This document shows, piece after piece, positions 2,912 to 43,222 of a DNA stretch of 64,000 nt. A model generated the notes under the pieces. That model saw nothing but the letters and a program-made list of their open reading frames with translations, was not told the DNA's origin and made no database searches. Each line of letters begins with the position of its first letter. Positions within the stretch are counted from its first letter, which is position 1. The stretch covers positions 280,420 through 344,419 of the forward strand of contig JACVTC010000166.1 of the NCBI GenBank assembly GCA_016946835.1, written 5' to 3'. The position numbers and the translations under genes were made by a program. The stretch is from Neocallimastix lanati (nom. inval.) (taxonomy: Eukaryota > Neocallimastigomycota > Neocallimastigomycetes > Neocallimastigales > Neocallimastigaceae).

Positions 2912-2959
2912 GATTAAAAGTCTCAACTCTTCAGTTTAGCTATCTTTAAAGCTAAGTTG
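2912..2959 (+). promoter_or_regulatory. tRNA-Lys-derived primer-binding site (relic element 1)
   Basis: Begins GATTAAAAGTCTCAACTC. The reverse complement reads through TAGCTAAACTGAAGAG into GAGACTTTTAATC, which matches the D arm and anticodon arm of tRNA-Lys (here with an UUU-type loop). Leader sequence homologous to other copies follows, and a gag remnant starts at 3924. Confidence 0.7.
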
Positions 2960-7645: not shown

Positions 7646-7693
7646 CAACTTAGCTTTATTGATAGCTCAACTGAAGAGTTCAGACTCTTAATC
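7646..7693 (-). promoter_or_regulatory. tRNA-Lys-derived primer-binding site
   Basis: The plus strand reads TAGCTCAACTGAAGAG then TTCAGACTCTTAATC, directly followed by TGTGAAAATT, the probable outer end of a minus-strand 5' LTR. The match to tRNA-Lys runs from position 8 (TAGCTCA) through the D loop to the anticodon loop CTCTTAA. There is no 3' half and no B box, so it is not a tRNA gene. Confidence 0.75.
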
Positions 7694-8942: not shown

Positions 8943-9574
8943 TTTTGGTTGATTAAATTTGCTTTAATAAAAATTAAAATTTGTTGATAGTGCTTATTTT
9001 AGATTATAAATTTTTATGAATTTTGAATTTTATTGATAAGATCAAAGTTGTATTTATATTTAATATTTGTGAATTTATTAATATATTTTACTAATTTAAT
9101 ACATTAAGTTAAAAGTACCGTTGGATATATTTTAGTCAAATTGAAATTAATTAATATTGGATTTTATTTTTAGAAAGTGAAATTTATTTATTGAAATAAT
9201 TTAATAAATTGTAATATTTATATTGTTTTCAACTTGATTAAAATATAAGTTGACTATTTATATTTATATTAATATTGTTCTAAACTTGATTAAAAAATCT
9301 GTAGACTATTTATATTTATATTAATATTATTTTCAACTTGATTCATTAACACAAATTATTTAGTATAATATTTAATGTTGAATTTTAAAATAATCTTAAT
9401 TTTTTTTTTGATTATATTTGATTTAGTTTGGTCGTATAAGAAATATTATATGATATTAAAATTGAATGTTAAATTAGTAAATTATTATTTATATTAAAAT
9501 AGTATTAAATATATAATTTTATAATTTAAACTTAGCTCTTTTAATGCACAATCAGAGAGTTGAGACTGGTATTC
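8943..9574 (-). mobile_element. Leader and primer-binding site of the relic with gag at 7850-8942
   Basis: Between 9220 and 9350 there are tandem units of CAACTTGATTAAAA..AGTTGACTATTTATATT, the hairpin type seen in the other leaders. At 9529-9574 a worn tRNA-Lys-type primer-binding site (AACTTAGC, GCACAATCAGAGAG, GAGACT) ends the leader, so a decayed 5' LTR should begin near 9575. Confidence 0.55.
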
Positions 9575-14639: not shown

Positions 14640-15310
14640 TATTAATTTTTTTAGTATTAATTTTAATTATATTTTACTTTTATATTAGTATTATTTTTAA
14701 TTTCAATTTATTTAAATATCATCAGTTGACTATTAATTTTTTATCTTGATGATATTAATTTTATTTTATTGTTATTTTTATTTATTTTTATTTTAATTTA
14801 TTTATAACATCGGCTGACTATAATATCTTTTCAGCTCGATATGTATATTATTCTAAATTCTTCTATAATATAAATTATACTTATCTTTTCAAGCTTATAT
14901 AAAACATAATTAATAATATTTATATATTAATTTATATAGATTTGATTGTAGTAAAGAAAATGTGTTATTAAAATAATTAATTTTATAATAATGTAAAATA
15001 TTTTAAAATTAGATAGTTACATATATTTTAATATTTAATTTTATTACATTGGTTACTTAACTTTCATGTCTTTGCGCAATCTGGTAAGACTGAGACTCTT
15101 AATCTTTTAGAAATAAGAATCTCCTTTATTTTATGATAATATTAGAATCATTTTTTAAATAATAATGTACATTTTTATGTTATTTATGGTTAATATAATA
15201 TGTAACTTATTATTAATATTGGTCACATATTTTACATGAATATATCAAAATATATATTATTTCACCTTAAATTAATATAATTATAAAATTTTATATTTAT
15301 ATTTTTAACA
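14640..15310 (-). mobile_element. Truncated LTR element: LTR (15105-15310), primer-binding site, hairpin leader
   Basis: Read on the minus strand: an LTR of about 206 bp (TGTTAAAAATATAAATATA.. to TTCTAAAA), then a primer-binding site complementary to 15059-15104 (plus strand GACTGAGACTCTTAATC), then a leader with two hairpin units. One uses ATCATCAGTTGAC..TCTTGATGATATT (about 14716-14763), as in the intact element at 34820-35056. The other uses GGCTGAC..TTTCAGCTC (about 14803-14845). No gag or pol follows, so only the 5' end survives. Confidence 0.65.
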
Positions 15311-16519
15311 ATATATTTTTTTTTTAATTGGTGAATTCAATATTATTTATTAAAGCTTAATAATATATTGTAATAGAAATTATTATGAATTAAGGTTTGA
15401 AATTGTGATGAAATTATTGGGGGTCATAATTATTTATTTTACAAATTTATATAATTTATGTAATTTTTTGTGATAATTTTGAATTATTTGATATATAATT
15501 TAATTAAATTTTTTTATTATTATATTTTTTTTTTATTTATTTTAAGTAAATTTTGTTTCTATTGTATATGTCCTTTAATTTGTGTATCAAATTAAACAAT
15601 ATAGGACATTTAAATTTATTGGGTACTACTAATAGTAAAAAATTTTATTTTATGAATATTTATTACTTTGTATATTAAGATTACTTAGTTTATACCTATA
15701 AATATAGTTGAGGGCTTCTGTTATATATTAATTTAATTATGATTTATTTTTCATAAAAATAAAATTTATAGTGTTTTTATTTAATTCAATATAAATTAAA
15801 ATATGAATATTGATATTTTATTAAATATTTTATTATTATTGGTGCTCTTAATTATTTTGAAATTTATTGATATATTATTATAGCGAAGATATATTGATTG
15901 CTCTTGTTTATTTGAATTGTTTAGAAATATAAATTAGTCATCTTTATTAATTATTTATATTAAATTTTAATATAGGTTCAATATTATTTTTAAAAGGAGA
16001 AACGTAATATAAGTATATAAATTTTGTTTATATTAATTTAATTTAAATGTTGATTTTAGAAACAATATAATAATACATAAATTGTTAGGATAATTTAATT
16101 TAATAAAATATGTTTTAATTTTATTTTCAGGTTAACATTTTATTAACTGACAATTATTATATTTTTAGTTTAATAATATTTTTTTGTTATCTGCCTATTA
16201 AATTTTTAAGAAAATGTTAGATCAATTTATTTATAAGATGGATATATTTATATATATATAAATTATATAAATTATAACTTAACTTTTGGTTGAGCTCAGT
16301 TATAGTCTGAGACTCTTAATCTTTTAGGAAAAAATATCTTTATTATGGTAAAAAATTAGAATAATATCAATTTATAAAATTATACATTTTTGTGGTATTT
16401 ATAGTTTACATAATATACTGCTAATTACCTATCATAAATCTTACACAGATATATTAAAATATATAACATTACTCCTTAAATTAATCTAATTATAAATCTT
16501 TATATTTATATTTCTAACA
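15311..16519 (-). mobile_element. Truncated LTR element: LTR (16322-16519), primer-binding site (16276-16321), leader
   Basis: The LTR begins TGTTAGAAATATAAATATA on the minus strand and is about 198 bp. Next to it, the plus-strand sequence GAGCTCAGTTATAGTCTGAG then ACTCTTAATC is the tRNA-Lys-type primer-binding site. The leader to about 15550 aligns with the leader of relic element 1 (the piece TTTAATTTGATACAC is shared with 3700-3720). It ends where the next LTR copy begins, so the inner part of this element is lost. Confidence 0.6.
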
Positions 16520-22205: not shown

Positions 22206-22463
22206 TGTCAAAATATTATGTTAAGAAACACTCAAATAAGTTATAATAAACACAATAATAAATATATATGGATTTGTAGTTTTTAGAAAAATATTTTATT
22301 TTATAACAGTATAAATTATTTTTATTCTCTTTTGTATAAGATATTACTTTTTATAAAATAATAATTCCATGATTTTTATACTTTTTATTTTAAATATTAA
22401 TACAAGTAATTGGTCATTATTTATATTAAAGATAGATTAATTAAATTAATCATTATTTTGACA
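22206..22463 (-). repeat. 3' LTR of the 22206-28532 element
   Basis: 258 bp, differing from its partner by a base change and a small indel around 22290-22310. The polypurine tract lies immediately inside it. Confidence 0.9.
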
Positions 22464-22536
22464 TTCCCCCAAAAATCTAGCTTCAAAAAAAAAACTTTTT
22501 AAAAGATAAAAAAAATGAAGATAGATTTTAATATAA

Positions 22537-25500
22537 TTAATTAATTATTTTCGTTAATAAGGTATTTCTAAATTTGTCCATTAAAGAGTTATTTAAGTAT
22601 TTTGTAAAACCATCAGCAAGGTTGTCCTTTGATTTTATGTATTTTAATTTTATAATTTTCTTATTTACTAAATCCCTAATATGATGATACCTAATATCAA
22701 TGTGTTTTGATTTCGGATTTATTGATTGATTTTCACTATTATATATTGTTGCTTTATTGTCTACGAAAATTGTTATTTCTTTGATATTTATGTTTAATTC
22801 GTTTAGTAAATTTTTGTACCATAATGAATGTTTTGCGCATTCACTTAAGCTATAATATTCAGCTTCTGTAGTTGAGGTGGAGACACAGTGCTGTAATTTG
22901 GAATACCAACTTGTTGGAGTGTCCCCCATTAACATGAGAAATCCAGAAGTTGATTTTCTTGTATTCGGATCGCCAGCAAAATCGGCATCTACAAATATTT
23001 TTAAATTCATTCCCTTTTCTATTTTGATTCCATAATTTTTTGTATATTTGAGATATCTAAAAATTTTTAAAACATTCATCCAATCTTCTAAGTTGGGATC
23101 TGTTGATTTTCTTGAAGCTCTACTAACAGCAAAAAGAATATCAGGACGGGTACAGATAGCTAAATATAGTAAACTTCCTATTGCACTTCGGTATTTTGTT
23201 TCATTGAATTTCTTTGTTCTTAGATTTGGATTTACTAATGGCATAAGATTTTTTACTGGTGTTAAGTTGTTAATATCGAATTTATTTAAAATGTCATTTA
23301 TATATCTACCTTGATGTAAAATGTAACCATTTAAAGTTTTGGTAAATTTTATTCCAATTACAAATTCAACATCCCCAATATCCTTTATATTGAACTTCCT
23401 TTGAATAGATTGTTTTACTTTATTTATTTCTTGATTTGTTCCTGCAATGAGAATGTCATCAACGTATACTGAGAGAATACAAACTATTTCCTTCCCATTG
23501 TTTAATTTAATATAAACACATGGCTCACTTTTTATTCTATTGAAACCTATTTTTATCAATTCTTCATTGAGTTTATCATTCCATTCTTTACCAGCTTGTT
23601 TTAAGCCGTAAAGAGCTTTGTGAAGTTCCCAAAAAGATTTTCCGTAAGATGGATGACCCTCTGGTGCTTTCATGTATATATGCTCATTTAATGGTGCATT
23701 TAAATAAGCTGAATTGATGTCTATTTGAACAATATTGAAATTTTTCTGAACCGCGATAACTGTAATGATTCGAACTGTATCCTGTTTTAGTGTTGGTGCA
23801 AATGTTTCTTTGTAGTCGATACCGTACTGTTGAGTGTATCCTTTTGCAACTAATCTTGCCTTTCTTTTAATAACATTTCCGTTTGCATCTCCTTTATACT
23901 TAAATACCCATCGTGATGATATTACGTTGGATCCTGATGGTACTGTTTTAACAATTTTATAAACATCAAGATTTTTCATGATTTCTAATTCTTTCTTGAT
24001 TGCGTTTAGCCATTCTATTTTATCTTTAAATTTGAATATATCCTTGAAGTTATATGGTTCAATTAATGTATTTTCATTAATTTTCATGTCTGATTCATCT
24101 GTGTTGTTTATTTTTTTTCTTTTATTTGAATTAATTGTAAAATTGTTTAAATTCCTTTTTGAATTTTTAGGATGTTGATAGTTTTGATTTTTCTCTTTAT
24201 TTGTGTTATATTTATTATTAATGTTGTTAATTTCTTGTTGGTTTTCTGTTGATATTGTGTTGTTATCATTTTCAGTCGTATTTTTAATTTCATTATTAAT
24301 ATTGATTGAATTATTATTGAAATTGTGATCATTTGAATTTAACAATTCCTGATTGAAAGTATTGTTACTATTATTGATTGAATTATTGTCAACAGTATTG
24401 TTGTTATTTTCATTATTATTATTTTGATTACTGTTATTAATGATAATTTTTTTATTATTATTTTGATAATTGGGATAATATTTACGACTAATTCTATTTG
24501 TTTTAGAAGATTTATTTTTGGATTGATTTTTAATATTTTTATTCTGGTTAATATTTCTATTCTGGTTAAAATTTGTTGTAGCATTTCTTTCATTGATAAT
24601 ATCTGTTATTTTATTATTATAATCATCAATTTCATTACGGTATCTAAGTCGGTTTAGACAGTTGCTCTCCCTGAATTTGTTATTGGAATGAATACGATTT
24701 AAAAAGGAATTTCCTGGTTCATTTTCCATAAATTCTACAGTGCGAGATTGGATGATTTTATTATTGATAACATCAAGAATTTTGTAAGTGGAAGGATGAT
24801 CGCCATATCCAAGAAAAATACCAGGATGTGAATTATTGTCAAATTTTGATCTTAGTTCCTTTGGCACAAAGAAATAGACTCTACATCCGAATACTCTAAA
24901 AGTATTGTAATCTACAGGCTTATTATAAAATACTTCAAATGGAATTTTGTTTTGAATGCCTTGATGGGGAAGTCGATTATGAATATAATTTGCAGTATCA
25001 ACAGCAAACTCCCAAAAATCATGACTGAGTTTAGCGTCGTTAAGAAGTGATTTTGAAGAAGCAATGAGTATACCATTAAATCTTTCAGCCCTTCCATTTT
25101 GAGAAGGGTTATAAGGAACTGAAAACTGATGATGAATTCCATTTTCTTCACAGAAAATTTGAAATTTACTATTTTGAAATTCCTTCCCATTATCAGATCG
25201 AATTGCTTTGATATTTATATTTAATGAATTATAAATTTTATTATACCAAATGATAAATTTGTTAAATACATCATTTTTATTTTCAGTGAAGATGACCAAT
25301 CCATATCTAGAGTAGTCATCTAAAATTGTAAGGAAATACTTATTGTTATTTATTGAAGGATTAACAGGTCCTACAAGATCTAGATGTATTAATTCTAAAA
25401 TTTGTTTAGTCTTATTGGTAGATGGTTTAAATGACTTATTTTTTAATTTGGAATTAACACATACTGGGCATTTTAATTTTAGATTGATATTACTTAATTT

Positions 25501-25977
25501 ATTTTTTATTTTAGAAATATCATAATGACCTAGGCGTCTATGCCAAAGGTCTATTACTTGTTGGTTATTTGATACTGTATAATTGATTTCGTTATGTTTT
25601 GTTGAATTTAAATTTGTTTGGTGTTTGGAAGTGAAAATTTGATATGTATTTTTATCATTAGATAAAGATTTATAAATTCTATTTCCATTATTATCATAAA
25701 TTAATGCTTGTGGGGAGTTGTCATAATTATTGAATATTACTTTATAATTTTGAGAAATTAATTGATTGATTGAAATTAAGTTTCTCTTAATATATCGTGA
25801 ATAATAAACATTTTTTAAAATGAATTTGTTGTTGTTAATGAATCCTACAAAATCGCCACAAAATTCAGATAATACTTCTTTACCATTCGCTAGTAAAATT
25901 TTTGTTTTACATTTTTTAATGTTAGTAAGAAATTTTATGTCATTAATAGTACTGATTGATGCACCTGAATCTAAAAT
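22537..25977 (-). CDS. pol: copia pol polyprotein (protease, integrase, RT, RNase H)
   Basis: One open frame of 1146 codons from just after the UGA at 25980-25978 to the stop at 22537. In order: protease active site ILDSGAS at the very start; integrase zinc finger LWHRRLGH..CPVC; integrase core with HLDLVGP, RSDNGKEF and GRAERFN (D,D,E); Asn-rich linker (24190-24600); RT with SRWVFKYK, TFAPTL, LYGLKQAGKEW and YVDDILIAG; RNase H with DADFAG, STTEAEYYSLSE and DNKATIYNSENQS. The catalytic residues are all present. In the sister element at 35571 gag and pol are one frame with TGG at the UGA site, so this frame has lost its own start by mutation and would need readthrough. Confidence 0.9.
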   Translation of the reverse strand: MLDSGASISTINDIKFLTNIKKCKTKILLANGKEVLSEFCGDFVGFINNNKFILKNVYYSRYIKRNLISINQLISQNYKVIFNNYDNSPQALIYDNNGNRIYKSLSNDKNTYQIFTSKHQTNLNSTKHNEINYTVSNNQQVIDLWHRRLGHYDISKIKNKLSNINLKLKCPVCVNSKLKNKSFKPSTNKTKQILELIHLDLVGPVNPSINNNKYFLTILDDYSRYGLVIFTENKNDVFNKFIIWYNKIYNSLNINIKAIRSDNGKEFQNSKFQIFCEENGIHHQFSVPYNPSQNGRAERFNGILIASSKSLLNDAKLSHDFWEFAVDTANYIHNRLPHQGIQNKIPFEVFYNKPVDYNTFRVFGCRVYFFVPKELRSKFDNNSHPGIFLGYGDHPSTYKILDVINNKIIQSRTVEFMENEPGNSFLNRIHSNNKFRESNCLNRLRYRNEIDDYNNKITDIINERNATTNFNQNRNINQNKNIKNQSKNKSSKTNRISRKYYPNYQNNNKKIIINNSNQNNNNENNNNTVDNNSINNSNNTFNQELLNSNDHNFNNNSININNEIKNTTENDNNTISTENQQEINNINNKYNTNKEKNQNYQHPKNSKRNLNNFTINSNKRKKINNTDESDMKINENTLIEPYNFKDIFKFKDKIEWLNAIKKELEIMKNLDVYKIVKTVPSGSNVISSRWVFKYKGDANGNVIKRKARLVAKGYTQQYGIDYKETFAPTLKQDTVRIITVIAVQKNFNIVQIDINSAYLNAPLNEHIYMKAPEGHPSYGKSFWELHKALYGLKQAGKEWNDKLNEELIKIGFNRIKSEPCVYIKLNNGKEIVCILSVYVDDILIAGTNQEINKVKQSIQRKFNIKDIGDVEFVIGIKFTKTLNGYILHQGRYINDILNKFDINNLTPVKNLMPLVNPNLRTKKFNETKYRSAIGSLLYLAICTRPDILFAVSRASRKSTDPNLEDWMNVLKIFRYLKYTKNYGIKIEKGMNLKIFVDADFAGDPNTRKSTSGFLMLMGDTPTSWYSKLQHCVSTSTTEAEYYSLSECAKHSLWYKNLLNELNINIKEITIFVDNKATIYNSENQSINPKSKHIDIRYHHIRDLVNKKIIKLKYIKSKDNLADGFTKYLNNSLMDKFRNTLLTKIIN

Positions 25978-27134
25978 TCAAACTATGAAGTTATTATTAT
26001 ATATATTACTATTTTCGTGATTTTTATTATTTATTCTTTCTAAACAATTAATTTCGATTGCATTGTCAGAGTTATAATCTTTAGAAAAATCTTCTAAGTA
26101 GTCGTCTTTATAGTTGTTGTAATTGCTTATTGAATATAAATGCTTGTTATTAATTATACTTTTATTATATTTTTTGTTCAATTTTCTTCGAATTTTCATT
26201 GATTTATTTTCATTATTTTGATTCAAGAGCTTATTTCTTTTATACTTATAACATTCCTTTTTGTAGTGGCCGTATTTTCCACATAAGAAACATTTTCCAT
26301 TTTTTCTTCTTCTTATTTTTAAATGCTTATTATTTTGTTTATTTTTGTTTTCAGTTTGTGAATTAAAAATATTTTTTGCGTTTTCTTCTTGAAGTTTTCT
26401 TTCCTTGATGTTCGAGAAAAGAATATCTGGTATTATTCTTTTTACGTAATTGCAACATTTTATCCATTCATTATTGTACTGGAAAACATTTATCCACCTT
26501 AGATTTTCAGGTAAGGCTCTATTCAGAATCCCTACCTTTACACTATCACTCATGTCTGTATCGATGATTTCCAATTCATCGATCATATTTTGAAGTGTTG
26601 CAAGGGAGATATGTATGTCATCATCTGTGGTAAATTTCAATCTGTTTAATTTATTTCGTAATAGCATTTTTTGATGCTCTTCTCCTAAAGTAAAGGAATC
26701 TTGAAGGAAGTTCCACATTTCGAAGGCGGTCTTACTATGGCTTTTTATTATTTCTTCGTTTTCTTTCCCAGGCTATTATTAATTATCCATTTGACCATGA
26801 TGTCATTCTTGATATCTGTTTGGGTTGTCCCAATATCGTAAATAAGAGAATTATTAAATTTATCTTTAATGTACTTATCTAAATCTTCTTTAATATCCTT
26901 CTTTCTCAATTTTTTTACTTTTGGTAAACTAATGTATTCATCTAGATTATTGATGATTAAGAGGTCCAATACGTTAGTTTTCCAATCTTGGAAGTTTTCA
27001 ACCGTTAATTCGGTAACATGATTGAAATTCTCGGAGTAATTGAAAGAGATTCCTTTAGCGAAGAAATTACTTTCTGATTCGGGAATTTCGATGATTTGGT
27101 TTCTGGAGTTACTTCTTGAATTGTTTCTGCTCAT
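25978..27134 (-). pseudogene. gag: copia gag with one-base frameshift and terminal UGA
   Basis: ATG at 27134 (MSRNNSRSNS) opens 128 codons carrying GISFNYSENFNHVTELTVEN and VKKLRKKDIKEDL. After GKKTKK the frame ends at 26748, and the homologous sequence resumes in another frame (SKTAFEMWNFLQ). This implies a single-base change within the A-rich run near 26750-26756. The second part, to 25978, has LRWINVFQYNNEW and a CCHC knuckle CFLCGKYGHYKKEC (residues about 141-154 of that part). It ends at UGA directly before the protease motif ILDSGAS. Gag would package the element RNA in virus-like particles. Confidence 0.85.
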
Positions 27135-28228
27135 TTTCTATTTTTTATTTTTACCTTCTTATTTTAATTAAAAGTATTTATGTTTTATTATTTTCTTAAT
27201 TTATTTTTTATTGCTTTTCTTTAATTTGTCTTTTATATATTTTTTATTTCTTTAGTTAGATTTTATTTTATTAAATTAAATAATGTAAATTGTAATTAAT
27301 TTTGATTGGTTCTATTTTTAGTGACAATTTATTATTAATCTATTTATATAGATTTTTTAATGATTAATATTTAAAAAATTTAATTTAAAGATATTAATAT
27401 ACATTTTTTTTTTAATATTGATGGAGGAATTAGTATAATTTTATTATTATTGAAACCTATCATTTTGATTCTTTTATTAAATAATGTGAATGTGATTATG
27501 TTACTATTCCTTTTTTAATTAAGAATAAATTATTTTTATTAATGTTTATTATAAAGTATTGTATATATTTATATTACGAACAATAGTATAAAGAGATTAA
27601 TTTATTTATATTAAGTGTATTTAAAAATTTTCGTTATTGTTGTGAAAATGATTATATCATTAATTGTTCATATTTAATATATTATTATAATTTCATTTTA
27701 ATTAAAATCTTTATTTTAATTATTTATTATATAATTGAATTTTTTATTATATTTTTCCCAGCTTATATAGCATAGCTGACATGTCATGTTCTTTTATTCT
27801 CAGCTTATATAGCATAGCTGACATGTTATGTTCTTTTATCCTCAGCTTATATAGCATAGCTGACATGTTATGTTCTTTTATCCTCAGCTTATATAGTATA
27901 GCTGACATGTTATGTTCTTTTTTATTCTCAGCTTATATAATATAGCTGATTTTTTGTTTCATTCTCAGCTTATATTCAATAGCTGATCTTTTATTTCATC
28001 CTCAGCTTATGTCTAATAGCTGACCTTTTGTTTATTTTCAAATTCAATTATATTGATATTGGACTTCTTTGTACAATTATTTTAAATATTAAAGATTCCA
28101 CTTTTATTTTAGTTTTATAATTTATAAATATTTATATATATATATAAATAATTAAAAATTAATATTTAATAATAAATATATAAATTTCAAATTTATTTAA
28201 TGTTAAATTTTTATTTTAAAAAAAAAAA
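27135..28228 (-). mobile_element. Leader of the 22206-28532 element with tandem hairpin array
   Basis: About 1.1 kb between primer-binding site and gag. At 27759-28039 there are seven tandem units of 37-44 bp, each with CAGCTTATATAGCATAGCTGA or a variant, an inverted TCAGCT/AGCTGA pair, separated by T-rich spacers. Four units are nearly identical, three more diverged. Confidence 0.85.
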
Positions 28229-28276
28229 TACTTAGCTTTTATATGGATTAATCGGTTGAGATTGAGACTCTTAATC
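28229..28276 (-). promoter_or_regulatory. tRNA-Lys-derived primer-binding site
   Basis: The plus strand reads TAATCGGTTGAGATTGAG then ACTCTTAATC, abutting the 5' LTR at 28277. It matches the D loop (TCGGT.GAG) and the anticodon arm of tRNA-Lys (CUU). Confidence 0.8.
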
Positions 28277-28532
28277 TGTCAAAATATTATGTTAAGAAAC
28301 ACTCAAATAAGTTATAATAAACACAATAATAAATATATATGGATTAGTAGTTTTTAGAAAAATATTTTTTTATAACAGTATAAATTATTTTTATTCTCTT
28401 TTGTATAAGATATTACTTTTTATAAAATAATAATTCCATGATTTTTATACTTTTTATTTTAAATATTAATACAAGTAATTGGTCATTATTTATATTAAAG
28501 ATAGATTAATTAAATTAATCATTATTTTGACA
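28277..28532 (-). repeat. 5' LTR of the 22206-28532 element
   Basis: 256 bp, TG..CA ends, flanked outside by ATAAT. Confidence 0.9.
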
Positions 28533-30177: not shown

Positions 30178-30385
30178 TGTTAAAAGTAAAAAGATTTCTT
30201 TTATTATGTTCTTATTATCACACAAAAGTAGTTATCAATAAATTTACTAGCAATATTTAACTATTTATAGCTTGTATTAATTGTGGCTCGATAGTAATAT
30301 CATTGGTCACTCATTTACACAAAATACATTACTAAACCCTTTAAATCTATGTTACACATAAACATTAATAATTATACTTCTGACA
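30178..30385 (-). repeat. 3' LTR of the non-coding element
   Basis: 208 bp, TG..CA. The polypurine tract lies just inside (30386-30395). Confidence 0.9.
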
Positions 30386-33235
30386 CTCCCCCTCAAGTCT
30401 AACTTAGGAATAAAGTTAGAATTGAATAAATAATAGTTATTTGAGTATCTTTAATAGGATAACATTTTAGAATGTTAAACCGATAATGATTTAATATTAA
30501 AAATTATATGAGTTACTTAAATGTAATATTAGTAATATTAGTGTTCGTATGATTTCCTTTAAATGGAGTTTCCAATGGCTATTCAATGTATATATAAATG
30601 AAGAAATTTTTCTTTTATTAGGATTCACTTACTTTTCCTTGGAGCGGATTGAAAAATTGTATCTTTGTCTATTGAAATTCTGCTTTAATGTATTGGGCAT
30701 GTTACTTATAGCGTAGAACAAAAATTTTAATACGAATAGAATTATGAAGGCACAATAAACTTTCTAAAAGGGATTTATTTCGTTTTTATTGTAATTTTGA
30801 GTTCTAAATTTTGCTTTAACAATTTGTTTTAACCTAACAGTTTCATTTTCAGGTTCAACTATTTATTTTTATCACTAATAAAATTATCATGTTCAACGTG
30901 TATCTGTTTTTAATAATTTTATTGATTATATTTATTTTGAATTTGTTAAGAATTTAAGGATCGTGTTTCATAAAAATGTAATAGGTTATATAAGTATAAT
31001 TTAGTGAATGACGTGTGTTGTAAATTTAGTGTATTTATGGTTTTAATTACGAAATCCTGATTATTTTTATTTTTTTTTTTTATTTCTGGGGGTTATTGTA
31101 AATTGACTAAGTTCAATATAATGAATGTTCACATTAATATTTTTATGTTTATGAAATAATTATATAGTATACTCCCCCTGATTTCGTAATTTAAACAAAG
31201 ATGAATAATAGCGTAAGTAATAGTTGAAGTTTGTTTAACGAAATATGAAACAAATGTTGGAATGCTTTAAAAGTGATGTTATATTTATATAGATGTAGGT
31301 AAACCGAAAAATTGGTATAGTAAATATGACGTCTGTAAACGATAATCCGAGTTTAAATGGATAAAAAGACGATAATCTAAGATAAACTTGAATTATAAGC
31401 TCTCTATTTCGAAATGTAGCTACAACTTCAACCATATTATTATTTATTGTATACACGAGTTTCATCATTTTCCTTCTAATTCACCTTGTTCATCTTATTT
31501 ATTGTATCTATTGTACTATACTTGAAGGTATGAATATTGCAATATTAAATCATGAAAATGATATTATTCGAATAGGTACGTAATGTTTGACATTAAAAGT
31601 GAATTAGTTATAAATAAAAAAAAATTGAAGTTCAAGTTAAATGTGTATCGATGATGGTAATTAAATTGTGTGATGGGATGTTAGTGAATATATTAGTGAA
31701 TATGGGGAGTTGATTGATCAAAGATTTAAAATATATTATCAAGTAAAAAATATGTAGTGGTGTTGTCATATTAAAGTAAAAGGAAAATAATATAATTTAA
31801 TTTGAAGATACTGCACTTATATAATGAAGGTTTATGTAAAATGTGAATATGATCAGTTATAATATTGGAATGATATAATAATTTCAATTAATGGTTAAAT
31901 TGTATGTCGGTTATTGTTGTATTTGTTTATGGAAGTAAATAATGGTTATATTATTCGAATTAAAAAACTTTAATGTGATTATAACTGAATTTATTAAAAA
32001 TTATTAGTTAAAATATTGAACACAGATCTTAATTGGAAAGGTTATTTATATAGTATTAATAAGAAATATAATTCATAATTGACGTTGTTTGACAAAGATA
32101 CTGATTAATGGTAGTTATTTGAAGATCCTGAGAACATAATACACTTAGTTAAATATGATGGGGATTGTTACCACCAATTAAGTATATATAAGTTTATAGT
32201 TATACGTAATACTCAATTGTAATTATTTTTTTTTTTTTTGCTGATGTAATGGATGATTTTAGCAAAATAATTTTGAATTTTATCTCTAATATCGGATTTG
32301 TATTTTAAATTGTTAATCTTCTCCAATTTATTGTTTTAACATTTCACTGATTATTGGTTATTTTTTATTTTTTATTTTAATATTTTAAATCAGATTGATT
32401 ATATCAATTTGAAATTATTCTATTTATTGTATTGGAGCCATTAATTATCTTTTCGATATAGAAATTTACATGAATGCCTATTTTATAAAGATATATTCTT
32501 ATGATATTAGTGATTGAATAAATATTCATGTTTTAGAATGATGGAGTAGAGATTTGTTACAATAGTTGAAAGTTAAATTTCCATAATAGCAAATATCTAT
32601 ATTAATTCTGACTCAGAAGTTTCGTTTTCATCAAATTACATAATGATATAATTTCTATTGTAAATGTTGAACCATGTTACGGTATCATGATGTTTCGAAA
32701 TATTCGATAATTCAGAAAGCTGAACATATTTTAGTATAAATATAATTTGTTAATTATGAGTTACACAACTCATGGGGATACACATGGTTTTGATGAGTAT
32801 TAATTATGGATTCTTTTTTTCATTTGATTATTAAATTTGATTATTCTAATTGTGTTGTTTTGTGAATGGTCTATTAATTGTTTGTTACAGATGTTTTGCG
32901 GAATTTTGTTTCATCTTATCATTGAGATTATTCTATTTGTTAGTGCATTTTGAATTTATAATAATGTAAAGTTTGTTTCAAGGATGAATATGTAATTTTA
33001 TTATTTGGGGTATTTTATTAATTGATATATTAATTACTTATTTCATTTCAATAAGGTATTTTGATAAATCAGAATATTAATGAAAAATGGCTATAACGAT
33101 GTCCTAAATTTGTAACCCTTAATTCTGGTGATATTCCGCATTGCAATTTTTAAATAAATGCTAATAATATTCATTATGGTAATTTTAATTTTATTTTATT
33201 TTATTATTCTTTTTTTATTTTTACATATTTTATCA

Positions 33236-33745
33236 TATGGCTGACCAATATTCAGCTCATTTTATTTTTATTAGGCTGACCAATATTCAGATCATTTTAT
33301 TTTTATTAGGCTGACTATACTCAGCTCATTTTATATTTTTATATATTTTAGATTAATAAACAACATTAAATTAGATGTTCCATCACTAACCAAAATATAG
33401 TATCTTGCTGACAATTTCAGCTAATATTAATTCAGTATTTTTCTAGCTGACTTTTTTCAGCTTAGATTAGTTCAATATTTATCTAGCTGACATTTTCAGC
33501 TTAGATTATTAATATTTAGTCAATATTTTGATTTATGGTTTTTATTTACACTAGATTTATTATATAAATAATTTTGTGTTGCTGACTATTTATATTATTA
33601 TTCAGCTAACATTTCATTTCGCCGGTAACTATATTCTTTCAACTGGTTTATTTATTATATTATATATTACAAATTTGTTTTTTTTATTATTTATTAATAT
33701 ATATATTTTTTTGGCTGCTGACTATATTATTTTCAGCTGGTTTTT
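33236..33745 (-). repeat. Hairpin array in the leader of the non-coding element
   Basis: About nine units in three groups: 33243-33330 (GGCTGACCAATATTCAGCTC, 41-bp spacing), 33413-33515 (AGCTGAC..TCAGCTTAG, about 50-bp spacing) and 33580-33745 (GCTGACTAT..ATTTTCAGCTGG). Each pairs GCTGA with TCAGC around a short A+T-rich loop. Confidence 0.75.
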
Positions 33746-34093
33746 TTTTTTATCATATTATAACTTAAGTAATTCAATGTTTTTTTTTTTTTATTTATTT
33801 TTGTTATTTTATTATTTACATCATATGAATATATATACGAAAATGAATAAAATCACTACTTATCTTTATAAGACTTATATTTCATGTATTATTGGGAATA
33901 ACGTCGTATATATTTTTTATTAGGATATTTTATAATTATTTAGATTAGTTTGTTTTTAATTATGATTTACGATTGTTTTTTTTTGTTTATAATTATAATA
34001 AAAAAATAAAGATGAGTTAGATGTTTAAATGTTTGATGTATAGTTTAATTAAATATTATTATTAAATATTCATTTAATAGATTATTTATACAT

Positions 34094-34140
34094 AACTTAA
34101 TATTATTTAACTCAATCTTAAGAGATTGAGACTCTTAATC
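34094..34140 (-). promoter_or_regulatory. tRNA-Lys-derived primer-binding site
   Basis: The plus strand reads TAACTCAATCTTAAGAG then ATTGAGACTCTTAATC, abutting the LTR at 34141. It matches tRNA-Lys from about position 8 to 40. Confidence 0.8.
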
Positions 34141-34348
34141 TGTTAAAAGTAAAAAGATTTTTTTTATTATGTTCTTATTATTATATAAAAGTAGTTATCA
34201 ATAAATTTACTAGCAATATTTAACTATTTATAGCTTGTATTAATTGTGGTTCGATAGTAATATCATTGGTCACTCATTTACACAAAATACATTACTAAAC
34301 CCTTTAAATCTATGTTACACATAAACCTTAATAATTATACTTCTGACA
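34141..34348 (-). repeat. 5' LTR of the non-coding element
   Basis: 208 bp, flanked outside by ATTTT. Confidence 0.9.
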
Positions 34349-34386
34349 ATTTTTAATTGAAAATATCTTTTTGGAACTATTAATCT

Positions 34387-34590
34387 TGTTAAAATATATT
34401 TACTATATTTCATTTTATATTAACCAATCAATTAGTTTAATAAATAATATTCATGTATAAAAGCTTTCTAAATGAATATGTTTTTCTTTAGTTCTATTTT
34501 TATAAAAAAATATATTAATAAATAATAAATATCTATAATATAAATAAATTAAACTATTATTTAATTATATAAACATTAATGTGTCTAAAA
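34387..34590 (+). repeat. 5' LTR of the 34387-40659 element
   Basis: 204 bp from TGTTAAAATATATTTAC to TGTCTAAAA; presumed to hold the promoter. Confidence 0.9.
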
Positions 34591-34641
34591 GATTAAGAGT
34601 CTCAATCTACTAATTGAGTTTGAATTAAAATAAAGTTAAGT
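34591..34641 (+). promoter_or_regulatory. tRNA-Lys-derived primer-binding site
   Basis: Starts GATTAAGAGTCTCAATC directly after the LTR. The complement continues through ACTCAATTAGTAG, matching the D arm, so complementarity to tRNA-Lys (CUU) covers about 30 bases rather than the usual 8-18. Confidence 0.8.
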
Positions 34642-34819
34642 TATAATATAAATTAAATTTTTCTATTTTTACCTTTCAATAAAACCAAAGAACTAATAAA
34701 TTATTATTTTTATTATTTATTGTATTTTATTTATTACCGAATCAAATCCATAAGAAATAAAGATTTTTTTTTAATCAACAATAAATAAAATTATAGTTAA
34801 ATTGTTAAATAATAAAATT

Positions 34820-35056
34820 AATATCATCAAGATGAAAAATTTATTGTCAACTGATGATATTAATATTAAAAGAAAATAAAAATGATATCATCAAGATGAA
34901 AAATTTATTGTCAACTGATGATATTAATATTAAAAATAAAATAAACACAATATCATCAAGATGAGAAATAAATAGTCAACTGATGATACTAATATTAAAT
35001 TAAATTAAATCTAATATCATCAAGATGAGAAATATATAGTCAACTGATGGTATTTA
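34820..35056 (+). repeat. Four tandem hairpin units in the leader
   Basis: Units of about 65 bp at 34820, 34885, 34951 and 35014. Each holds ATATCATCAAGATGA, an A/T loop, and GTCAACTGATGATATT, so AATATCATCA pairs with TGATGATATT. Differences between units lie mainly in loops and spacers, while the stems are kept. Confidence 0.85.
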
Positions 35057-35570
35057 GATAAATTTGAAACTAAAATATTATTAATATAAAAAATATAATT
35101 AAATTAAAGTAATAATAAAAAAAAACTAATTATATGTATTAAATAAAATTTTGAATAAATCACATTATATAATATATCAAATATATTAAAATGAAATTAT
35201 AAAACTAATCAATGAATAAAAAATAAAAAATCTAATCAAATAATAATCAACTTTTATTTAATCAAAATTAATAATAAATTAAATAATATAAATGCCTTAT
35301 TTATTAAAGTTTGGTATTACAATACTAAATGAGATAAAAATAGTAACAAATTAATGAAATCAAATTTAAGTAAAAATTAAAATGAGAATTTTTAATATAA
35401 CAAATTAATACTAATAAATTAATAAAAATTAACAGAATTAAATATTATAATATTTTTTTAAAAAAAAAAAAAAAAAACTACTAAAATATTTTTATTAATT
35501 GAGATATTAAAAAATAGTTATAATTAATTTAAAATAATAATAAAAATTTAAGACTTCAAAAGTACTCGAA

Positions 35571-38500
35571 ATGGCTGGAAGAAGAAGAAACCAAGAACAA
35601 GTTATCAACCTCACCGGAGAAGATATTACACATAACGGAATAACCTTTAATTATTCCGAAAATTTCAACCAAATTACTGAACTAAATACAGAAAACTACC
35701 CTGTTTGGAAAAGAAAAATTCTGTATTTGCTAACAATAAATAAATTAACCAAATATGTCCTTCATCCAATTGTAAAGAAGTTAAGAAAGAGAGATATAAG
35801 AGAAGAATTAACAGATTACCCGGAGGATCAATTTGATAGTTCGTTAGTTTATGAAAAGAACACTAAAAACATTGATATAACTAACGACATCACGGCCAAA
35901 TGGATTATCATAAATGGGCTTGGAGAACAAACACAAAAACTAATAAATGGAAATGAAAAGACCGCTTTTCAAATTTGGAACATCTTCCAAGAATCGTTTA
36001 CCAAAAGCAAGGAAAGAAGAAAAATCGAAATCCAAAACAAAATTGAAACAATGAAGTTTGACACAAAGACCGATATAAATATATTCATTGCCAATTTGCA
36101 AAACTTAATAGACGAACTTGAGAAAATTGACAATGACCTTAGTATAAATACAAAAATCGGCATTCTAAATAGATGCTTACCTGAAGATCTAAGGTGGATA
36201 AACGTCTTTCAACATAAGAGTTGGGAATCATGCTGCTCCTATGTTAAGGAAATCATCCCTAATATCGTTTTATCTAATTTAAAAGAAAAAAATTCCATTC
36301 AGGAAAACAACAATAATAATATTCTCTTCAATGCTGAAACAAGAAATAGTAAGAATTATCGAAACAATAATAGAACTAAAGGTAAAAGAAAAAGTTTTAA
36401 AAGGAGTAGTGGAAGATGTAACTATTGTGGAAGAAGAGGACATTACTTCTATGAATGTAAATTCAGAAAAAATAATTTATATAAAAATCAAAACAAAAAT
36501 AAATTTAATAAAAAAACTAAAAACAAAAGAAAATTTCAAAACGATATTAATTATGTGAACACTAATGATGCCTCTTCAAGTAATTATGACACAATATACG
36601 CAGATGCCTTTACTAAAGATTATAATACAGAAAATAATATTGAATTAAATTACTGTAACGTTGAAAAAGAATTTTTAAATGAAGATAATGACAAAAACTT
36701 TCTTTCATGTTGGATTTTGGACTCCGGTGCTTCAATCAATATCACAAGCAATCTTAATCTTCTAATAGACATAAAAAAATGTAATGAAGAAATTAATCTA
36801 GCTAATGGACAAATAATTACAGCTGTCCATAAAGGAAAATTTAAGGGGTATGTAAACAACAATGAAGTAATACTTAATGAGGTATACTACTCTCCAGCCA
36901 TCAATAAAAATTTAATATCCATATGCAAATTACTAAAAGAAAATTATAAAATTGTTTTTAATAATTCAAATAATAAATCATATGCAATCATTTACGATAG
37001 CAATGATAAAAGAATAGTTAACATCACTGCAACCAAGACTAATACATTTAAAATTTGGTTTTCCAATAATAAAATAAATCTCAATAATAATAACAATCAA
37101 CATAATAATTTAGAAATAAATTTCACTACACCAAATGCAGCAAAGAGATTAAATTTATGGCATAGAAGATTATGTCATTTTGATATTAGTCATATTAAAA
37201 ACAAATTATTAAAACTTAATACACCAGTTAGTCAATGCCCAATTTGTATGAATTCAAAACTTAAAAATAAACCATATAAGCAAGCAACAAATAAGTCGAA
37301 ACATATATTTGAATTACTTCACATGGACTTGGTTGGTCCTCTTCCTGAATCACTTTATGGTAACAAATATCTTTTTACAATCCTCGATGACTATTCACGC
37401 TATGGATGGACTTTGTTTTTAAAATCTAAAAGTGACACCTTTAACTCATTTTACAATTGGTTTTTATGGATTAAAAATAAGTATAATACTAGAATTATAT
37501 ATATTCGAACGGATAATGGTACAGAATTTTGCAATAATAATTTTAATTTATTCTTTAAATCTTATGGTATCAAACATCAGCTAACTGTACCATATAACCC
37601 ACAACAAAATGGAAGTGTGGAACGATTCAATGGCACCCTAATTAATTCCGCCAAAGCTATGCTGAATGACTCTAAACTTAGTCACCAATTTTGGGAAGAT
37701 GCTACCTCTACTGCTAATTATATACATAATCGCATTCCACACAAAGGAATAAATATGAAAATACCTTATGAAATAATTAACAAAACAAAGGTCAACTATT
37801 CAAATATTAAAGTATTTGGATGCAAAGTTTATTTCTTTATTCCTAAAGTCTTTAGATCTAAATTCGATAACAATACTAAACCAGGGATTTTTCTAGGATA
37901 CTCTGAAAATCCATCAGCTTACAAAATTTTAGATATTACTACTAATAAAATAATCCTATCTAGATCTGTTGCTTTTTTCGAATCCAATCCTGGAAACAGT
38001 TATCTTAAAGAATGCTCAACTGAATTTTCCAATTTTATTCCGGATCACGAAATCAGGGGAGATAATACATATAATACATACTATAATAAAAATACATACG
38101 ATACCAATACATATAACATTAATCATAATATTCAACAAAGATTAAATAAAATTGATTATCCAAGTTCTAAAGAATTTTTTAATTCAAAAAACATCCTAAG
38201 TAATTCACCAATATTAAATAATAGCAATATACAAAATATATACGAAGATATAATCAATAAAAATAATCCTAAGAATAAAAGAAAATATAACAAAAAACAA
38301 AGAAATAATAATTACATTAACAATAATAGTAACAATAACAATGAAAATATCAATAATAATAACCATAACAATAATTTCATTAATAATAATACAAATAATA
38401 ATAATAATATAAACAATAATAATATTAATAATAATGACATAACCAATAATAATTTTATCAATAATAATAATATAAATAATAATTATAATAATAATAATAC

Positions 38501-40391
38501 AAATAATAGTAATAATAATAATACAAATAATAGTAATAATAAAATTAGAATTAATAATAATAATATTGAAAATAATAATAATAGCCAAAATAGAGAAGAT
38601 ACTAATAATAAAATAAATGATAATACAGCCAATAAAACAATCAATAACAATAATAATATTGAAAGCAGCAGAGTAAATGACAACACAATTATCAATAAAA
38701 ATTATATTCAACGTAATGGAAACGAAATTATAAATACTTTTTTGACTAATAACAATTCATTTAAATTAAATAATATCGAGACCAATAATAAAAAAAGAAC
38801 TATGAATATTATAAATGAAAGTAATAACAAAAGAAGAAAGACAACAAATACCTTAAGAGAACCAGAAAATTATAAGGACATTCAAAATTTAATTGATAGA
38901 AAAGAGTGGATTAATGCAGTAAATGAAGAATTAAGTAATATGAAAAACTTAAATGTATTTAATACAATTAAATATATACCCAAAAATGCCAATGTAATTT
39001 CCTCACGATGGATTTTCAAATATAAAAGAAATGCGAATGGCGAGATAACAAAAAGAAAGGCAAGATTGGTAGCACGAGGTTTTACCCAAGAATTTGGAAT
39101 AGACTTTCATGATACTTTTGCACCAACGTTAAAACACGACTCTATCAGAATTTTAACTTAAATTGCTGCCCAAAATAATTTTAATATAGAACAAATCGAT
39201 ATAAACGCTGCTTACCTTAATGCCAAGTTAAGTGAAAATATTTATATGAAACCTCCAGAAGGTCATCCAGATTTTAATAGAAAATACTGGAAATTAAACA
39301 AGGCTATATATGGTCTGAAACAAAGCGGAAGAGAATGGAATAAAGAAATTAATAAATTCTTAACTAAAATAGGACTTAGAAGAATGGTAAGTGAACCATG
39401 TATATATGTAAAAAATGGTAAAAATAAAAACATTTTATGTATAGTCGGTATTTATGTTGACGATATTTTAAACGCTGGAAAAGAGAATGAAATTAAAATT
39501 ATAAAAGAATATTTCAAAAGAAAATATAAAATAAAAGAAATTGGAGACGTGGATTTCGTTATCGGAATAAAATTTGTTAAACACAAAAACGGATATTTTA
39601 TGCATCAAAGAAGATACATTATAGAGGTTTTAGAAAAATTCAATATGAATAATGAAAAACCATTAAGGAATACAAAACCAATTACGGACGACAAACTTAG
39701 AAATATAAAGTTTAATCAAACTACCTACCGAAGTGCAATAGGAAATTTACTCTACATTGCTATATGCACCAGACCTGATATTCTATTTTCGGTAAGTAAA
39801 GCAGCACGAAAATCAAATAATCCGAATATGGAAGACTGGAACAATGTCGTACGAATACTAAGATATCTTAAAGGAACAACGAGTTACGGGATAAACTATA
39901 CAAGGAAACTAGGAATAGAAGCCTTTGTTGATGCCGACTTTGCAGGAGACACTGAAACCAGAAGATCAACAACAGGTTTTTTAGTAACCATGGGCAACGC
40001 ACCAACTAGCTGGTGTTCCAAGCTACAACACTGTGTGTCAACATCTACTGCAGAATCGGAGTATTATAGTCTGAGTGAATATGGCAAGCACTGCATTTGG
40101 TATTTAAACTTAATGAAAGAATTATATTATAATATTAAATGTATTAAAATAAAAATAGATAACAAAGCTGTCATATTCAATAGCAAAAATCAATCCATTA
40201 ATCCGAAGACAAAACATATTGATATAAGAATTCATTATATTAGAGAAATAATAAATAAAAATTTTATAAAATTAGAATATATTCAATCTCAAAATAATTT
40301 GGCCGATGGATTCACTAAATATCTGAATAACACTCTTATGGAAAAATTCAGAAATTCTTTGTTATATAAAATTGAGGATTTAAAATTTTAA
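35571..40391 (+). CDS. gag-pol: copia gag-pol polyprotein with one in-frame TAA
   Basis: 1606 codons plus stop in one frame, with a single TAA at 39159-39161 where the sister element encodes Val in RT. In order: gag with GITFNYSENFNQITELNTEN (about 25) and a CCHC knuckle CNYCGRRGHYFYEC (about 283); protease WILDSGAS (about 381); integrase HRRLCHFD..CPIC (about 530) and core HMDLVGPL, RTDNGTEF, GSVERFNG (D about 585, D 648, E 684); an Asn-rich linker (about 900-1060); RT with SRWIFKYKR, FAPTL, IYGLKQSG and YVDDIL (about 1298); RNase H with DADFAGD, STAESEYYSLSE and DNKAVIFNS. Start chosen as the first ATG before the conserved gag block. The stop would truncate RT; the other catalytic residues are intact. 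Confidence 0.92.
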
Positions 40392-40455
40392 TTCTAAAAA
40401 TATAGTTAAAATTAAACAAATGTAACATTGAAACGAAGTTACATTTGAGGAGGAG

Positions 40456-40659
40456 TGTTAAAATATATTTACTATATTTCATTTTATATTAACCAATCAA
40501 TTAGTTTAATAAATAATATTCATGTATAAAAGCTTTCTAAATGAATATGTTTTTCTTTAGTTCTATTTTTATAAAAAAATATATTAATAAATAATAAATA
40601 TCTATAATATAAATAAATTAAACTATTATTTAATTATATAAACATTAATGTGTCTAAAA
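40456..40659 (+). repeat. 3' LTR of the 34387-40659 element
   Basis: 204 bp, no difference seen from 34387-34590; preceded by the polypurine tract. Confidence 0.9.
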
Positions 40660-41533: not shown

Positions 41534-41822
41534 TGTTAATAAACACACAATTAAGAGACACACAATATTAAGATAATATTAAAATTATGTTTAAGTAAAG
41601 ATGTTTTATATTCCTTTATTATATATTAATATTTATTATTTTAAATATATATAACTAAGTATGTGTGAGCGTATATATATTAAGGTTTTTATTGTTATTT
41701 AAAAAGTTAAAAAAATTTAGAATTATAACTTAAGCACGTTTTATAGTATTTCGAGTATTAATGTATTTGTAAAATATTTGATAATCATAGATTAAATTTT
41801 ATATTAAAATATATTTTTAACA
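41534..41822 (-). repeat. LTR (family E), left copy
   Basis: 289 bp, TG..CA ends. A polypurine-like GATTTTAGGGTGAA precedes it on the minus strand. Confidence 0.8.
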
Positions 41823-41979
41823 TTCACCCTAAAATCTAGCTTCAAAAAAAACTTGATGTAAAAAAAAATGAAGATAGATTTTGAAAAATTATACTACTTT
41901 TAATTTGATTAGGAGAGCTTTCTTAAAAAAAACTTATTATATATAAGAAAAAAAAAATGATGACGCATTTTAAATTATA

Positions 41980-42707
41980 TTATTCAATTTTAGTAAAAAG
42001 GGAAATTCTAAATTTATCCATTAAAGTATTGTTTAAGTATTTCGTGAAACCGTCTGCTAAATTTTCTTTAGTGTTTATGTAACTCAATTTAATTAATCTT
42101 TTATTGACAAGGTCTCTAATATGATGATACCGAATATCAATGTGTTTCGACTTGGGATTAATTGACTGATTCTCACTATTATATATTTTTGCTTTATTGT
42201 CGACAAAAATTTTTACATTATTAATTTTTATTCCAAGTTCATTTAATAAATTCTTATACCATAATGAATGCTTTGCGCATTCGCTCAAACTATAATACTC
42301 AGCTTCGGCCGTTGAGGTAGAAACGCAATGTTGCAATTTCGAGAACCAACTGGTTGGCGTTCTTCCCATCATCATCAGGAATCCTGAAGTAGATTTTCTT
42401 GTGATTGAGTCTCCAGCGAAATCTGCGTCGACATAAACCTTAAGGTTAATACCTTTTTCAATTTTTATACCATAGTTTTTTGTGTACAATAAGTATCTGA
42501 ATATTATAAGAACATTATTCCAATCCTCTAAGTTAGGGTTATTGGATTTTCTTGCTGCTCTGCTCACAGCAAATAGGATATCAGGTCAGGTACAGATAGC
42601 AAGATATAATAGGTTCCCAATGGCACTTCAGTATTTCGTTTCATTAAATTTTATGCATTTCAATTTATTATTTTCTACTTGTATTAAATTTTTTGATTGT
42701 GTAAGTT
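41980..42707 (-). pseudogene. copia RT/RNase H C-terminal fragment
   Basis: On the minus strand from about 42700: KFNETKY, stop, SAIGNLLYLAICT, stop, PDILFAVSRAARKSNN, then DADFAGD, STAEAEYYSLSE, DNKAKIYNSENQS and GFTKYLNNTLMDKF to the stop at 41980. Two TGA stops sit where the sister elements have Arg. The 195-codon open part (42567-41980) is essentially the RNase H domain. Only the last 24 codons are repeated in the other arm (42708-42775). Confidence 0.85.
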
Positions 42708-42933
42708 TCACGAAATACTTAAACAATACTTTAATGGATAAATTTAGAATTTCCCTTCTTACTAAAATTGAATAATATAATTTAAAATGCGTCATCATTT
42801 TTTTTTTTTTATATATAATAAGTTTTTTTTAAGAAAGCTCTCCTAATCAAATTAAAGGTAGTATAATTTTTCAAAATCTATCTTCATTTTTTTTTTACAT
42901 CAAGTTTTTTTTGAAGCTAGATTTTAGGGTGAA

Positions 42934-43222
42934 TGTTAAAAATATATTTTAATATAAAATTTAATCTATGATTATCAAATATTTTACAAATACATTAATA
43001 CTCGAAATACTATAAAACGTGCTTAAGTTATAATTCTAAATTTTTTTAACTTTTTAAATAACAATAAAAACCTTAATATATGTACGCTCATACATACTTA
43101 GTTATATATATTTAAAATAATAAATATTAATATATAATAAAGGAATATAAAACATCTTTACTTAAACATAATTTTAATATTATCTTAATATTGTGTGTCT
43201 CTTAATTGTGTGTTTATTAACA
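42934..43222 (+). repeat. LTR (family E), right copy
   Basis: 289 bp, inverted copy of 41534-41822 with a few transitions. Confidence 0.8.

Follow-up and report, generated by a model that had tools for sequence, protein, structure and literature searches.

Primer-binding sites of Ty1/copia elements in the fungus Neocallimastix lanati match the anticodon arm of tRNA-Lys(CUU) and point to a half-tRNA primer

Copia elements and sites complementary to tRNA-Lys(CUU)

We examined a stretch of 64,000 nucleotides (nt) from Neocallimastix lanati (assembly GCA_016946835.1, contig JACVTC010000166.1, positions 280,420 to 344,419; hereafter the window), which has a guanine plus cytosine content of 20.6% and comes from an assembly of 199 Mb. 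Pairs of long terminal repeats (LTRs) and 5-bp target site duplications (TSDs) delimit three retroelements here: A (22206-28532, minus strand), B (30178-34348, minus strand) and C (34387-40659, plus strand). B and C diverge from one another, their 5' ends lying within positions 34094 to 34641. In all three elements the 14-nt sequence GATTAAGAGTCTCA adjoins the 5' LTR without a spacer, its opening G being the first base past the repeat, and it is exactly complementary to nt 27-40 of the tRNA-Lys(CUU) of the host. We read it as a primer-binding site (PBS) for the 5' half of that tRNA. In A and C the integrase core precedes an RVT_2-type reverse transcriptase, the arrangement that marks Ty1/copia elements, and both also have a copia gag. 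TG..CA LTR ends together with 5-bp TSDs are found in A and B; in C the duplication is present and the LTR terminates in AAAA. Element B, with 97% identical LTRs and a PBS, lacks any open stretch of at least 120 amino acids on its own strand and is non-autonomous or decayed. The closest named relatives of the copia pol sequences of the window in the eukprot set, at 61 and 65% identity, bear the code Orpsp1_1, which we take to be Orpinomyces, a gut fungus.

An earlier note on this DNA had listed eight sites placed right after an LTR end. All eight are where it put them, and five match GATTAAGAGTCTCA exactly, two (2912 and 7646) with one mismatch and one (9529) with three. Adjacency to the LTR without a spacer is shown by both LTRs and the 5-bp TSD for three sites (28276, 34140 and 34591); for two more (15104 and 16321), alignment with related LTRs supports it. 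No LTR pair turned up at the decayed sites 2912, 7693 and 9574. The site at 2912, GATTAAAAGTCTCA, fits a UUU anticodon but disagrees with the tRNA-Lys(UUU) of the host in the stem, and we read it as decayed. The first 13 nt of the PBS, with up to two mismatches, gave 7 matches in the window versus 1.13 ± 1.16 in shuffled sequence (0 of 100 shuffles reached 7), and the exact 13-mer has 1934 matches genome-wide (998 + 936), with none for the reversed control. At two places a pair of PBS copies lies on the same strand, 74 bases apart in locus L002 (1426 and 1500, minus strand) and 77 apart at G000:C2:1906249/1906326; in L002, LTR-end sequence lies between both copies, as aberrant strand transfer might leave.

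The tRNA scan of the window found no tRNA gene. The host tRNA-Lys(CUU) gene, called by ARAGORN on fetched loci, has G as nt 26 and is exact over nt 27-40, which bears out the claim that the sites are complementary to the anticodon arm of tRNA-Lys and not to the tRNA 3' end. The D arm plus anticodon of this tRNA has 73 genome matches. The complement of the equivalent arm of tRNA-Lys(UUU) has 42, all on contigs that bear tRNA-Lys(CUU) genes in tRNA arrays, and tRNA-Lys(UUU) was rejected as the primer on this ground. A presumed 12-mer of the initiator-Met arm gave 54 matches, many of them clustered on few contigs. The tRNA-Lys(CUU) genes are arrayed with other tRNA genes on contigs C188, C251, C266 and others of G000, the array on C188 showing alternating orientation and a period of ∼11 kb; at G000:C555, ∼330271-333608, genes of the tRNA-Arg(UCU) type, their identity taken from neighbouring loci, recur every ∼540 bases.

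The earlier note had ascribed the site to all LTR families, and this did not hold. We compared RVT_2 with the gypsy-type integrase PF17921, using the best 150 of 2891 and of 3170 candidate matches, respectively; the lists of sites are complete for contigs C1-C11. On these contigs, a site lies upstream of seven of the eight listed RVT_2 matches on their own strand, at 2.7-6.0 kb, and of none of the eight on the opposite strand, versus no upstream site for any of five gypsy-type integrases (Fisher p 0.0047). On C12-C34, where the site lists are incomplete, the counts are 4/9 for copia and 0/14 for gypsy; one of the five copia misses, on C29, proved to lie 3.86 kb downstream of a perfect 14-mer, which brings copia to at least 5/9. 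Copia gag models match 3' of the PBS in three of six scanned loci (L004, L005 and L008), and the gag scan returned no family in four of eight stretches. The site is a feature of Ty1/copia elements and not of all LTR families.

Extent of the complementarity and folding around the sites

Genome-wide, the 13-mer occurs 1934 times and the 14-mer 1902 times, the latter followed by C, the tRNA-matching base, in 146 cases, by T in 668, by G in 410 and by A in 678 (A by subtraction). After deduction of the 73 tRNA genes, each assumed to match, nt 27 of the tRNA is matched in 1829/1861 sites (98.3%) and nt 26 in 73/1829 (4.0%). We also took a sample of 58 sites, which left 54 once duplicates were merged (46 of these from beyond the window); the 51 of them with the exact 13-mer form 33 clusters by flank similarity. 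With one site taken per cluster, position +14 is A in 31/33 and +15 is C in 2/33; on the LTR side, -2 is the tRNA-matching G in 0/33. The uninterrupted complementarity to the tRNA is thus 14 nt long and ends at nt 27 across the genome. G follows the 14-mer in 22% of cases genome-wide, and copies within families are not independent.

Beyond this edge, the earlier note had described complementarity running through the D loop to about nt 8 of the tRNA. Scored against the complement of nt 1-26, all 36 representatives together reach 424, versus 340.8 ± 11.9 in shuffles (0/500); the same sum is 425 for tRNA-Ile and 413 for tRNA-Lys(UUU), so over the whole set the signal is not specific. We divided the representatives according to a tail motif chosen independently (AGYTAAGT-like, +26 to +65). 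Those with the motif, ten in number, score 164, versus 120.7 ± 6.4 when the hairpin was kept and the rest shuffled (0/1000; singly, p < 0.05 in 4/10), and their mean score is highest for tRNA-Lys(CUU) (16.4), followed by tRNA-Lys(UUU) and tRNA-Ile (14.6) and by the other tRNAs (9.2-11.7). The remaining 26 reach 260 versus 240.6 ± 9.2 (22/1000), an excess due to a few of them (L002, L091, L104 and L113). The D-arm matches are gapped, and hence are not fresh copies of the tRNA. Comparison with the host tRNA-Lys genes thus upheld an exact match at nt 27-40 and, beyond nt 27, a partial and gapped one. By sequence, the long D-arm complementarity appears to be real in one group of related families, where it is interrupted and not renewed, and to lie near background in most others.

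These results bear on the suggestion of the earlier note that plus-strand synthesis may copy the entire 40-nt half in each cycle, here taken together with a function of the ∼30-nt complementarity in all families. The motif-bearing group speaks for it, since its D-arm score exceeds that of hairpin-keeping shuffles and is highest for tRNA-Lys(CUU). However, across the genome the sites cease to match the tRNA after nt 27, the D-arm matches contain gaps, the other 26 representatives stay close to their shuffles, and over all 36 tRNA-Lys(CUU) does not rise above tRNA-Ile. We regard copying of the whole half as extremely unlikely.

There is also an excess of hairpins at the sites. For 34 representatives (the 33 clusters plus site 7646), the best stems touching the PBS region sum to 479, versus 389.4 ± 13.2 when the downstream part was shuffled (0/300). 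Singly, p is below 0.05 in 6/34 and below 0.01 in 3/34, and the over-representation holds for the set. Two forms are seen repeatedly. One is GAGTC/GACTC, in which the 3' arm duplicates a piece of the tRNA anticodon arm; the other is CTCANN/NNTGAG, in which both sides change among families (CTCAAT/ATTGAG, CTCAACT/AGTTGAG, CTCAG/CTGAG). Such folds could suggest self-priming of the kind used by Tf1 and plant TAR elements, where the primer is cut from the 5' part of the transcript itself after this has paired with the PBS. Many families do repeat part of the anticodon arm downstream and fold back on the PBS, with GACTC present in 8/26 representatives outside the D-arm group versus 0.08 expected. 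Yet the LTRs of A, B and C hold no complement of the PBS above shuffles, and the fold-back arm lies 3' of the PBS and is variable, whereas the PBS keeps matching nt 27-40 of the tRNA. We consider self-priming very improbable.

A probable half-tRNA-Lys primer and a proposed stop of plus-strand copying

That the 5' half of tRNA-Lys serves as the primer, as the earlier note had suggested, remains the best reading of the sites and seems well supported by their letters and setting: an exact match to nt 27-40, a position at the LTR edge, the tie to copia, and no expansion of the equivalent site of the other tRNA-Lys. We think it highly probable that these are the PBSs of Ty1/copia elements whose primer is the 5' part of the tRNA-Lys(CUU) of the host, severed behind nt 40, with plus-strand copying proposed to stop at a dimethylated G26. 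A primer ending at C40 means that the cut must fall within the anticodon stem. In the 5' fragment so released, nt 27-40 would pair with the 14 nt adjoining the LTR, and minus-strand DNA synthesis would start there. During plus-strand synthesis the reverse transcriptase would copy nt 40 back to nt 27 and halt at G26, because that base would be N2,N2-dimethylated, so that exactly 14 nt would be rewritten per cycle. In one family group, the D arm would pair again past G26, forming a second box that is not renewed.

Several papers lend this scheme some background. Data from a trm1 deletion indicate that yeast tRNA-Lys(CTT) carries N2,N2-dimethyl-G26 (PMC9943672), G26 of S. pombe tRNAs is a position of misincorporation by reverse transcriptase (PMC4697793), the plus-strand stop of human immunodeficiency virus type 1 is set by m1A58 (PMC13191261), and internal cleavage of the Ty5 tRNA has been attributed to RNase P (PMC5371799). 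In the present genome, matches to the Trm1 family (PF02005) lie on two contigs. We tentatively propose, with slightly less than even confidence, that N2,N2-dimethyl-G26 is a built-in stop that sets the length of a half-tRNA PBS, as a counterpart of m1A58, and that one group regains pairing through a D-arm box that the PBS hairpin frees only upon annealing of the half-tRNA.

Several points weigh against this reading. One of the eight copia reverse transcriptase matches on C1-C11 has no exact site within 8 kb. An exact 13-mer served to select the sampled sites, so that positions 1-13 are invariant by design and only +14, +15, -1 and -2 test the edges. C is rarer at +15 (4.0%) than downstream (15.2%, in the sample), a deficit that a stop alone does not predict. 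Finally, a folded D stem of the half-tRNA predicts the edge at nt 26 equally well. This last point amounts to an account of its own, in which half-tRNA-Lys priming is kept and the 14-nt edge comes from the fold of the primer, with the D stem (10-13/22-25) closed, only nt 26-40 free and no stop at a modified base. When we folded the 1-40 fragment, the D stem was indeed retained and 26-40 was open in the centroid. However, nt 26 is unpaired in that fold, and C nevertheless occupies +15 in only 4.0% of sites. In co-folds with the half-tRNA (unmodified RNA, without a shuffled control), 8 of 11 D-arm-group sites form at least 13 pairs to nt 1-26, and all eight skip nt 26; the remaining sites form none (window sites 16276 and 2912) or four (L092), and outside the group L002, L091, L102, L104 and L113 also reach at least 14 pairs, likewise without a shuffled control. 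We put the methyl stop slightly ahead of the D-stem fold because nt 26 is still passed over where pairing has resumed in the D arm; the fold is possible, if on balance doubtful.

The sharp edge between nt 27 and nt 26 across the genome makes an old question, namely what terminates plus-strand strong-stop synthesis when the primer is a half-tRNA, directly testable at the level of a single modified base and a single enzyme (Trm1).

Related systems and further features of the window

The earlier note had taken a tRNA-Lys half to be unfamiliar, but a PBS internal to tRNA-Lys is already in print: the FunCo1 Copia elements of Pezizomycotina (ascomycetes) carry ATTAAGAGTCT (PMC5445492), which is the core of the present 14-mer and contained in it, both being found in fungal Copia. 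In the cited part of that paper, FunCo1 is reported almost only from Pezizomycotina, with no mention of a tRNA half, an nt 26 edge, a PBS hairpin or D-arm pairing. The choice of primer is therefore already known in fungal copia; what is new is the sharpness of the site's end and the folding of its neighbourhood, and internal tRNA-Lys priming would be extended from ascomycete FunCo1 to another fungal genome, with its 1934 13-mer matches.

With an LTR-edge PBS complementary to an internal tRNA stretch that ends in the anticodon arm, the elements would rank among half-tRNA-primed copia elements. Several comparable systems are described in the literature. Drosophila copia and yeast Ty5 are likewise Ty1/copia elements primed from the internal end of a cleaved tRNA (PMC5371799), but use half of the initiator tRNA-Met and not tRNA-Lys. 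In plants, half-tRNA PBSs occur in Ty1/copia lineages only, namely Osser, Bryco and Gymco-II (half tRNA-Met) and Bianca (half tRNA-Ile) (PMC6317226), which differ from the present elements in tRNA and host. The Conserved Hairpin Site of fungal GalEa starts directly behind the 5' LTR, as the hairpins do here, but GalEa has no tRNA-matching PBS, whereas here the hairpin overlaps one (PMC5445492). In the bipartite PBS of Ty1 and Ty3, a second tRNA-complementary stretch lies at a distance from the main one, which pairs with the 3' end of the tRNA (PMC5371799). In the present elements the main site would pair with the anticodon arm, and a candidate second box is seen by sequence in one family group only. 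The relevant portions of PMC4247016 and PMC6875170 contain nothing on such a PBS, those of PMC7773854 name only tRNA-Met for copia, and among titles and abstract openings of the gut-fungus literature none is about primer use.

Table 1. Features of the retroelements and isolated sites in the window
Feature	Position	Strand	Remarks
Element C PBS	34591..34604	+	exact complement of tRNA-Lys(CUU) nt 27-40
Element C 5' LTR	34387..34590	+	start TGTT, end AAAA; TSD AATCT
Element C 3' LTR	40456..40659	+	
Element C hairpin	34601..34618	+	CTCAAT/ATTGAG; overlaps PBS 3' end
Element C D-arm stretch	34606..34618	+	aligned to tRNA-Lys D-arm complement
Element C gag-pol	35544..40391	+	open stretches 35544-39161 and 39162-40391, in-frame stop between; copia gag, integrase core, RVT_2
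Element B PBS	34127..34140	-	exact 14/14
Element B 5' LTR	34141..34348	-	TGTCAG..TTAACA; TSD AAAAT
Element B 3' LTR	30178..30385	-	
Element B hairpin	34111..34130	-	CTCAATCT/AGATTGAG; overlaps PBS 3' end
Element A PBS	28263..28276	-	exact 14/14
Element A 5' LTR	28277..28532	-	TGTCAAAA..TTTTGACA; TSD ATTAT
Element A 3' LTR	22206..22463	-	
Element A gag and pol	22537..26772	-	copia gag 25978-26772; integrase core before RVT_2 22537-25977
PBS	15091..15104	-	exact; sequence upstream aligns with related LTR ending at identical point
PBS	16308..16321	-	exact; sequence upstream related to LTR of 15104 element
Decayed PBS	2912..2925	+	1 mismatch; no LTR pair
Decayed PBS	7680..7693	-	1 mismatch; no LTR pair
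Decayed PBS	9561..9574	-	3 mismatches; no LTR pair

A search of IMG/VR confirmed no relatives; at least 120 stretches in it match the 14-mer, chance matches being expected at 14 letters. The leader of element C holds a tandem repeat of ∼64 bases (34747-35132). At 41534-43222 a near-perfect palindrome, whose arms measure 335 and 191 nt (98-99%), lies over a fragment resembling the 3' end of copia pol. A 2271-amino-acid open stretch at 56091-62906 contains short cysteine-bearing repeats and is one of several similar ones from 46065 onward.
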